Source: Owenia fusiformis
Lineage: Eukaryota; Annelida; Polychaeta; Sabellida; Oweniidae
Assembly: GCA_903813345.2 (NCBI GenBank)
Contig: CAIIXF020000004.1
Location: forward strand, 22,073,985 to 22,137,984
Direction of reading: 5' to 3'
Length of the DNA: 64,000 bases
Shown here: one piece after another, positions 643 through 64,000 of the stretch
Position numbering within the stretch: the stretch's first letter is position 1
How the letters are laid out: each line of letters opens with the position of its first letter
Notes under the pieces: model-generated
What the model was told of the DNA's origin: nothing
What the model saw: only the letters and a program-made list of their open reading frames with translations
The model's database searches: none
Translations under genes and position numbers: made by a program

Positions 643-3600
643 GCATGGGTTGGTACCGCTATGAGAAACCAGGTGCAAAGGAGCCATTCATAGATGCTGA
701 GATCACTACACTCCTGGAAGATTATAGCAAGAAGCATAATATTACACGAAGAAAAATTTCGCCACAAGTAAATGAAGAAGATTTTTAACCATTAAGTAAA
801 ACAAGTATATTGGATAAAAATATTCATCATATATTTGAAAACCTTTTTCCCCATTTAAATTTTACTCCAAATAATGGATAACATTTTTCACTGTTAATAT
901 GGTATATAATCTTTTGCCATATATTGGGTACAATTTTGAACCATATGTATTGGATAAAAGTTTTCACCACAGATAATATTGTTCATAGTTTTTACCATGT
1001 ACTATAGAGTGGATAATATTTTTGGATAATATTTTCACCATATATTGAATACAATTTTAACTATATCAACAATTAAAAAATAGTTCTTGCAATAAATATA
1101 ATGGATCATTTTGAGAATATAAACTTTTTTTTCGTTGACATAACATGTCACTTTTTAAGAAAAGGAATTGGCTGTTATGAAACTTCATTGAAACTTTTCA
1201 GACAAAAAAAAACATGTTTAATTTTTAAAAATATATCCAGCATAATTAAACAAATACGAGAAAAATTAGAATAGTAGAATTAACCACATTTTTAGGAAAT
1301 CTTCGAGAGGTGCTTCTACCCATTGATCAATGAGGGCTTTAAAGTTCTGGAAGATGGCATAGCAACAAGACCTGAAGATATAGATGTCATATGGTAAGAC
1401 CTATGTGTCATATGGTAAGACATAGATGTCATATGGTAAGACAAAGATGTCATATGGTAAGACATAGATGTCATATGGTAAGACATAGATGTCATATGAT
1501 AAGACATATGTGTCATATGGTAAGACATAGATGTCATATGGTAAGACATAGATGGCATATGGTAAGACATAGATGGCATATGGTAAGACATAGATGTCTT
1601 ATGGTAAGACATAGATGGCATATGGTAAGACATAGATGTCATATGGTAAGACATATATGTCATATGGTAAGAAATAACTGTCATATGGTAAGACATAGAT
1701 GTCATATGGTAAGACATATGTGTCATATGGTAAGACATAGATGTCATATGGTAAGACATAGATGTCATATGGTAAGACATATGTGTCATATTGTAAGACA
1801 TAGATGGCATATGGTAAGACATAGATGGCATATGGTAAGACATAGATGTCATATGGTAAGATATATGTGTCATATTGTAAGACATAGATGTCATATTGTA
1901 AGACATAGATGGCATATGGTAAGACATAGATGTCATATGGTAAGACATATGTGTCATATGGTAAGACATAGATGTCATATGGTAAGACATAGATGTCATA
2001 TGGTAAGACATATGTGTCATATTGTAAGACATAGATGGCATATGGTAAGACAAAGATGTCATATGGTAAGACATATGTGTCATATGGTAAGACATAGATG
2101 TCATATGGTAAGACATAGATGTCATATGGTAAGACATATGTGTCATATTGTAAGACATAGATGGCATATGGTAAGACATAGATGGCATATGGTAAGACAT
2201 AGATGTCATATGGTAAGATATATGTGTCATATTGTAAGACATAGATGGCATATGGTAAGACATAGATGGCATATGGTAAGACATAGATGTCATATGGTAA
2301 GACATAGATGGCATATGGTAAGACACATGCTATGGCACATTAAAGGGGCAATAAGGACTGTAGAGAAAATAGGAAAGTTTTTTCATTTTTTCTAGGCTAT
2401 CAAGGCAACATTTGGTTTAACATCGTCTTTGACATACCTATTTTCTTAAAATGTATGGATAAATTATCAATTTCAGCATTAAGAAGTGTAACTTCATTTC
2501 AAAGCTTCACAAAGGGGACTTCCACTTTTATATTTTTAAGATCCACCATGTTTCAAGAGGAATATCAGCTAAAATAATGTTTATCTAGGGGGTTTCTTTG
2601 TAGATAATAAAAATAGATGTTAGTCTTGATGAAATATCCAAACTTAATTATATTTTGACACTGCTCCATGATCGTTGAATGACCCCTCTGCACTAATTAT
2701 TGCACCTTTAAGAACATTTTATGGGGCAATTCTGGACATTTTTGGGAAACCAAAATTCACAGATTGAAATAATGTTCAACAACAGCCTACTACAACATGA
2801 GAAAAAATGGGCCCTTGTAAAATTGTAATATTAAATGTATTATATTTAGCAGCACAAAATTGAAAATTAAAATGGTAAAGGACAAGTCTCGGTTTGGAGA
2901 ACAGTCTCTTGGGCTTATAATTGTTTTTATGAAAAATTTAGAAATATCACCCAAATTAAATTATGGATATTCAAAAGAGGACCTTTAAATCTACAATATG
3001 TAAAACATGAAAATTGTCCAAAGCAGGCGTAACGTGCAGTAAAAATGATGAACTTCGTTCTCTAAACCGAGACTAGTCTTTTGGACAAGAGTGTACCCAA
3101 AAATCAAAATTTGTTGTTTTAGAATTTACTCAATATGCCCAAAATGTTAAATCGATCGGTCAAACTGTTTCTCTGGAAATGTGCAGACACAAAAAGTGAG
3201 AGGACTCTGCCAAACCATCACAAAACTCCCATAACTAGCAACCAGTGACAATATATATCCCTATTACCCTGTTAAATATTTTGTGTGATGATTCTTTTAG
3301 GATCAATGGCTACGGTTGGCCTAAATACACCGGGGGACCGATGTACTATGCCAATCAAATTGGACTAGACAAGATTTATGACACAATGTGTTACTATTAT
3401 GAACAACATCGTAAGTAGTAGATGATTTTCATTTTCTCTGAACATATTACATGTAATTTTTGGAATGTCATCTTTCTTTCTTCATCCACCTAGAAATTTG
3501 TCTTTAAAATAATTTAATGAATTATGACAGCTTAATGTAAAATTACAAAATTAAGAAAAGAGAAATGTTGTTTTGTAATGTAGTTGAAAAAAACACATAA

Positions 3601-64000: not shown

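Follow-up and report, generated by a model that had tools for sequence, protein, structure and literature searches.

Are the 3' ends of exons a birthplace of tandem repeats? The question is raised by a 64,000-nucleotide stretch of the genome of the oweniid annelid Owenia fusiformis (C4:22073985-22137984; assembly size, 498 Mb), called the window below, for which a first-pass annotation made from the sequence alone proposed that tandem arrays are born at exon 3' ends as a rule. The answer reached here is that arrays are concentrated at exon edges, at acceptors as well as at donors, and affect a minority of exon borders.

Genes and arrays in the window

The window contains four genes, for an EHHADH-like enzyme, profilin, GTF2F2, and RFC4, which have GT-AG introns and Pfam matches. 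The GTF2F2 exons, joined on the minus strand from 54454 to 33756, are identical to the 249-residue Owenia protein P0001, and the profilin isoform composed of E1, E2b, and E3, also on the minus strand, is the annotated Owenia protein P0121. The other two genes lie on the plus strand. The joined exons of the EHHADH-type enzyme match Pfam 3HCDH, and three of its four window exons are 40-61% identical to human EHHADH; the window exons of RFC4 are 47-93% identical to human RFC4. No match to a repeat from the window was found among viral contigs. The EHHADH features are as follows.

643..767, plus strand: EHHADH exon, donor without array (Pfam 3HCDH by joined exons)
1296..1393, plus strand: EHHADH exon E2, its last 19 nt part of the array's first copy
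1375..2325, plus strand: EHHADH donor-type array, 21-bp unit AAGACATAGATGTCATATGGT, approximately 45 copies
3301..3410, plus strand: EHHADH exon, donor without array
3738..3838, plus strand: last EHHADH exon, ending ...SRL and then stop
3856..4008, plus strand: irregular array (TRF score, 112) that begins 18 bp past the EHHADH stop, unit with AATAAA

The E2 array is the clearest case in the window. Its first copy is formed by the final 19 nt of the exon and the adjoining GT and is identical to the consensus at 20 of 21 positions, and the array holds 38 sites that match the real donor in strength (the real one counted) on the sense strand and 0 on the antisense strand. The same gene carries, 10.7 kb upstream of the window, an acceptor array made of 10 copies of a 159-bp unit. 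The unit comprises the acceptor CTATATACAG with the greater part of the next exon and extends into the real exon, which starts at C4:22063310. At another upstream EHHADH exon, further down, one array (score, 148) stops approximately 7 bp before the exon and a second (score, 196) begins approximately 50 bp after it. One whole EHHADH exon is present in four similar tandem copies at L009:5137-7886.

The profilin gene has arrays past two of its exons.

27284..27391, minus strand: profilin exon 1, by splice-site re-finding
23466..23643, minus strand: profilin alternative exon 2a; the joined protein matches Pfam Profilin
22243..22414, minus strand: profilin exon 2b, part of the annotated Owenia profilin P0121
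20375..22245, minus strand: donor-type array cluster past profilin E2b, units with GTGAGTAT
19387..19493, minus strand: profilin exon 3, with the stop codon followed by donor-like AAG/GTAAGA (putative donor)
18743..19410, minus strand: profilin E3 array, 81-bp unit, 8.2 copies

The E2b array contains 41 donors of at least 5 bits on the sense strand and 0 on the antisense strand, and its unit includes the border by 3 nt only. The annotated P0121 uses the exon-attached donor of E2b, despite the donor copies downstream. The unit of the E3 array holds the last codons, the stop, and AAG/GTAAGA, so that 24 nt of the exon, stop codon included, are part of it. As read by eye, a further piece of this array lies at approximately 17850-17960, beyond a hAT-like insertion (approximately 17960-18743) with the ends CAGAGATCACGGTAG and CTATCGTGATCTCTG and an 8-bp target duplication, ATTAGCTA; because the insertion sits within the array, the array is the older of the two. 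Exons E2a and E2b resemble tandem whole-exon copies.

GTF2F2 and RFC4 contain the following features.

54386..54454, minus strand: GTF2F2 exon 1, from ATG
51194..51273, minus strand: GTF2F2 exon 2, within P0001
50810..51173, minus strand: GTF2F2 E2 array, 43-bp unit, 8.5 copies, starting 20 nt past exon 2
49065..49198, minus strand: GTF2F2 exon 3, array-free end
35693..35798, minus strand: GTF2F2 exon 4, array-free end
34771..34867, minus strand: GTF2F2 exon 5, with an AAAT-type simple repeat at 34679-34746 (TRF score, 81) from 24 nt after it
34117..34260, minus strand: GTF2F2 exon 6, with an array at 33904-34052 (TRF score, 174) from 64 nt after it
33756..33875, minus strand: GTF2F2 last exon (7), with stop
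33515..33765, minus strand: GTF2F2 stop array, 68-bp unit, 3.6 copies, stop codon in the first copy
58164..58294, plus strand: RFC4 exon 1, from ATG, array-free end
62554..62632, plus strand: RFC4 exon 2, array-free end
62781..62860, plus strand: RFC4 exon 3, array-free end
63336..63525, plus strand: RFC4 exon 4, Pfam match
63528..63653, plus strand: RFC4 E4 array, 23-bp unit, 5.4 copies, starting 2 nt past exon 4

The GTF2F2 E2 and RFC4 E4 arrays adjoin the border rather than span it, and their units are without a strong donor; P0001 uses the attached E2 donor of GTF2F2. The array at 33904-34052 ends 28 nt before the acceptor of GTF2F2 exon 7, just beyond the 25-bp limit applied below. In the remainder of RFC4 (L010:1-2439), no TRF array reaches a score of 50.

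According to the first-pass annotation, each of the four genes has an array that starts within 0-20 bases of an exon end, and several repeat units include the border. Both statements hold: arrays start 19 nt inside the EHHADH exon at 1296-1393, 3 nt inside the profilin exon at 22414-22243, 20 nt after the GTF2F2 exon at 51273-51194, and 2 nt after the RFC4 exon at 63336-63525, and the border belongs to the unit in the EHHADH, profilin E2b, profilin E3, and GTF2F2 stop arrays. When the intronic TRF arrays (adjacent rows merged) were permuted within the window, with a limit of 25 bp from a border, all four arrays with a score of at least 200 were donor-side (expected, 0.042; p at the floor of 5e-6) and none of the four was acceptor-side. 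Lower thresholds gave 4/12 donor-side arrays for scores of at least 100 (expected, 0.137; p = 1.5e-5) and 5/22 for scores of at least 50 (expected, 0.257; p at the floor of 2e-5), with 0 at acceptors in either case. The annotation had also described the rule as selective, with no arrays in other introns of the same genes. Selectivity stands insofar as only some borders are hit (11/196 in the genome sample below), but other introns of these genes do hold weaker arrays (TRF scores, 100-143) away from exon ends, in RFC4 intron 1, profilin intron 1, and GTF2F2 introns. Twelve arrays in the window have a TRF score of at least 200; six are at exon ends and six, at 11681, 12709, 14713, 15622, 30871, and 57688, are at no recognised exon. 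Since the window is one of approximately 7,800 such windows in 498 Mb, its p-values alone are insufficient, and it is the genome sample that bears the claim.

All three genes that end in the window have an array that spans the stop codon (profilin and GTF2F2) or begins 18 bp after it (EHHADH). Around the exons of the genome sample that were read by eye as terminal (L011 and L038), no array with a score of at least 100 was found within 1,500 bp. These numbers are too few to judge stop-codon ends as sites of arrays.

The window contains a number of other elements, most of them recognised by eye. GTF2F2 intron 3 includes an LTR element on the minus strand (approximately 36825-47415, by eye), whose open frames at 39355-39954 and 41371-42126 had no Pfam match. 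An extra LTR piece (approximately 46740-46838) lies beside one of its LTRs, and the sequence between the two (approximately 46839-46881) looks like a tRNA 3' portion that includes CCA, as though the element had copied its primer. On the plus strand, a gene-like region at 54080-57562 shows, by eye, three related open frames in a row and a YIG-like motif; the two of these frames that were scanned had no Pfam match. In the array that follows it (57688-57874), there are two donor-like sites on the plus strand and none on the minus strand. An array with a 105-bp unit at 14310-16221 is apparently interrupted by an element with internal repeats of approximately 134 bp that end in CGGA runs (by eye), and a motif of this element recurs at 4844, 9800-10035, and 14812-15109. 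CCATGG-rich repeats were seen by eye in inverted orientation at 59418-59541 and 61756-61872, on either side of a region to which a reverse-transcriptase-like fragment (approximately 59159-59400, by eye) also belongs.

Arrays around a genome sample of conserved exons

The exon sample was drawn from two unrelated families, Cpn60/TCP-1 and myosin head, which gave 152 genome matches (60 and 92, respectively). One hundred of these were examined, and 98 were kept as exons for which a scoring script had assigned a donor and an acceptor; some of its calls are surely wrong (e.g., the L022 donor, at -0.5 bits). The two that were dropped each lacked a donor or an acceptor; one of them, L031, has a small acceptor repeat with a score of 120. 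First passes, which were anchored on the ends of HMM matches, showed no clear excess: within 100 bp downstream, arrays were found at 0/30 (TRF score of at least 100) and 3/30 (at least 80), and within 100 bp upstream they were found at 2/30 and 1/30, respectively. A k-mer count at the borders of 60 loci gave repeats at 1/60 donors and 3/60 acceptors. These passes missed arrays that start more than 60 nt inside the exon (such as that of L017), and the splice sites were therefore refined.

Around the 98 exons there were 31 distinct arrays with a score of at least 200, and 11 of them crossed a border or lay no more than 25 bp from one, compared with 1.41 expected. None of 5,000 random placements reached 11 (maximum, 7; p = 0.0002). 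Nine of the 11 span the border, copying 13 to 97 nt of the exon together with the splice site, and the other two merely adjoin it. Donors accounted for six (expected, 0.71) and acceptors for five (expected, 0.69), and the affected borders amount to 11/196 (5.6%; confidence interval, 2.8-9.8%). The proposed restriction to exon 3' ends therefore does not survive, given these counts and the EHHADH acceptor array. A duplication across one border leaves the exon intact, which makes a permissive null, in which the founding unit may span one border, the fairer comparison. Under this null, 3.09 border arrays were expected versus 11 found (p = 1e-4), an excess at exon edges of approximately 3.6-fold, and 2.17 were expected versus 9 found when spanning arrays only were counted (p = 1.5e-4). 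The 11 arrays fall in seven regions and so are not all independent; three are in a CCT-beta-like gene on C11, and three are in one C9 myosin region. A protein search for the Owenia CCT-beta sequence, intended as a check on three more arrays, gave no protein named as Owenia's among the 120 matches listed. Within this sample, arrays genuinely cluster at exon edges, on both sides alike, and a minority of borders is affected. A tandem row of 12 similar myosin head exons was also seen, at C9:37986009-37994334.

Copied splice sites and their possible origin

Border-spanning arrays with copied splice sites occur at the donors of EHHADH E2, profilin E2b and E3, L017, L095, L099, and L107 and at the acceptors of L022, L027, L106, L078, L084, and the EHHADH exon at C4:22063310. 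The copy at the border resembles the array consensus in the 12 cases compared (e.g., 20/21, 78/81, 82/83, 94/96, 60/61, and 157/159), the lowest value being 38/48. Because the exon copy codes for conserved protein, the direction of copying was from exon to intron. In five of the six border-spanning donor arrays that lie in coding sequence, an in-frame stop cuts off read-through toward the next donor copy before the first unit ends; in the remaining one, that of profilin E2b, the stop comes after 15 codons. Unit lengths are multiples of three in 5 of 12 cases, which is no bias, and copied donors have decayed in L107 (17 copies, with 5 sites that match the real donor in strength, the real one counted) and L099 (2 such sites, counted in the same way). 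With no frame bias and with decayed sites in some arrays, the copies look near-neutral. In the acceptor arrays of L027 and EHHADH, however, the copies are in frame and open, and judging from the reading frame they may be used as splice sites. G-skew on the sense strand is positive at the arrays of EHHADH (0.44), profilin E2b (0.80), profilin E3 (0.50), and GTF2F2 E2 (0.31) and negative at those of RFC4 E4 (-0.19), GTF2F2 E6 (-0.71), GTF2F2 E5 (-0.67), and the EHHADH stop (-0.38). An R-loop cause, as judged by G-skew, was rejected on account of these mixed signs.

We consider it probable that the Owenia arrays are border duplications of the mirage type known from amphioxus, tolerated in introns, together with an excess of duplication at exon edges. 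A local tandem duplication would extend across one splice site while the exon retains its own border intact; every additional copy would land in the intron, where the duplication would be tolerated and could then grow in the manner of a minisatellite. Splicing would stay with the exon-attached copy, that is, the first of the donors in a donor array and the last of the acceptors in an acceptor array, as at E2b in the annotated protein of profilin, the one gene with copied donors for which use of the attached donor was seen. Exon definition would be the most economical reason for this. The copies carry one of the two sites that an exon needs, so the true exon would remain the shortest acceptor-donor pair. 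A rule of first come, first served fits donors and not acceptors, whereas pairing across the exon fits both. The excess suggests, with less certainty, that tandem duplication would start more often at exon edges, on both sides, than inside introns, and the higher G+C content of exons (0.42, versus 0.33 in the flanks) makes a compositional or chromatin edge a candidate cause. In its boldest form, in which exon edges are a genome-wide, two-sided duplication hotspot that touches several percent of splice sites, which are read correctly only through choice of the shortest pair, the proposal is a tentative one that we lean slightly against.

Tolerance and geometry could also suffice by themselves, if duplications arose evenly and those that cross one border survived, with no hotspot. 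Such an account requires no new mechanism, but it predicts 3.1 border arrays out of 31 where 11 were found (p = 1e-4, although the arrays are clustered in seven regions), and we judge it unlikely. The first-pass annotation had raised an origin tied to transcription or splicing at the donor, through R-loops, U1-bound nascent RNA, or nicking at 5' splice sites, and the window, with arrays at donors only and positive sense G-skew at four donor-side arrays, would suit it. Such an origin predicts arrays at donors and none at acceptors, which is not the pattern in the genome sample; as donors and acceptors are hit equally and EHHADH has an acceptor array upstream of the window, a donor-only mechanism cannot be the general cause. 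The negative G-skew at four arrays points the same way, and the donor share of the window (four donors, no acceptor) does not differ significantly from that of the genome sample (six and five; Fisher p = 0.23), which leaves this origin distinctly improbable. Selection for the copied sites, through splicing speed or alternative isoforms, is improbable as well: many copies match the strength of the real site (38 in EHHADH), and the acceptor copies of EHHADH and L027 are in frame and open, yet the decay in L099 and L107, the stops met on read-through, and the lack of a multiple-of-three bias all speak against it.

The arrays might instead be seeds of new or lengthened introns that form by duplication of proto-splice sites, as proposed for amphioxus globins (PMC3087553, in excerpt). 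Their structure matches that model, but they occupy one end of otherwise ordinary introns, and we regard this origin as very improbable. Chance, selection by the reader, or faulty assembly is scarcely credible. Long arrays are prone to assembly error and the window is a single one among thousands, but independent loci agree, the copies within the exon-end arrays of the window differ from one another (TRF matches, 79-99%), and one array appears by eye to contain an insertion.

Comparison with known systems

Tandem duplication of whole exons forms a family that includes mutually exclusive exons. The copies in that family can hold both splice sites, whereas the Owenia border arrays examined hold one. 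Whole-exon duplication is present in Owenia as well, in profilin E2a/E2b, the four-copy EHHADH exon, and the 12 C9 myosin exons. Internal tandem repeats of human segmental duplications, as presented in excerpts of PMC2812944, share with the Owenia arrays the placement of minisatellites at exon borders, with units of approximately 30 bp on average. The human repeats differ from one recent paralogue to another and reportedly give rise to new introns; the Owenia genes examined, in contrast, are housekeeping genes with ordinary-looking introns. The intronic minisatellite CeRep25B of Caenorhabditis elegans likewise lies near splicing decisions and has a link to alternative splicing, but it is a dispersed satellite family, not derived from the adjacent exon border (PMC4039745, in excerpt).

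For annelids, no report of border arrays was found in the literature searched, which excluded subscription journals and preprints. The term "minisatellite" is absent from the available excerpts of the Owenia genome paper (PMC9977687), which gives an annotation of 26,966 genes, and of a later Owenia paper (PMC12153100), and the excerpts of the amphioxus paper PMC2206037 mention tandem repeats and not border arrays.

The closest known system is that of the amphioxus mirages. The first-pass annotation had pointed to intronic minisatellites containing splice sites in amphioxus, and the link was correct. Excerpts of two papers (PMC3087553 and PMC3902484) describe mirages in Adh3, troponin C, the globins BflGb6 and BflGb9, and PGBD5. 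In the globin genes, 5' and 3' boundaries are duplicated (PMC3087553); PGBD5 has 60-bp and 108-bp repeats at splice sites, in a paper that also cites troponin C (PMC3902484); splicing is reported to be undisturbed by the Adh3 mirage (PMC3087553); and length differences between haplotypes and somatic instability are reported for amphioxus. Border-spanning units, occurrence at both sides of the exon, and copied AG/GT signals are common to the two systems. In Owenia, the unit spans the boundary in 9 of the 11 sample arrays and in EHHADH E2, profilin E2b, and profilin E3, though not in the GTF2F2 E2 and RFC4 E4 arrays; both 5' and 3' boundaries are duplicated (six donors and five acceptors); and the copies contain splice signals, again except in the GTF2F2 E2 and RFC4 E4 arrays.

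The arrays have a number of implications. If the attached copy is used throughout, as seen for profilin, the first-made donor and the last-made acceptor would be the ones chosen, and the arrays make the choice of the spliceosome among many equal splice sites testable. If exon edges are indeed a hotspot, the Owenia genome would offer a library of natural experiments in exon definition, numbering in the thousands. Such arrays are also a likely source of error in gene prediction and assembly. Known mirages come from single amphioxus genes, according to the excerpts of PMC3087553 and PMC3902484. Their occurrence in a protostome, at approximately 6% of the sampled conserved-exon borders, implies that such duplication either is ancient or evolved repeatedly, and the phenomenon extends to another animal, as the first-pass annotation had envisaged. 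The Owenia border arrays are real, beyond chance, and of a kind already known, and they are new for the phylum as far as searched. They differ from the amphioxus mirages in their annelid host, in reaching up to 45 copies, and in having been counted against a null (11/196 borders).
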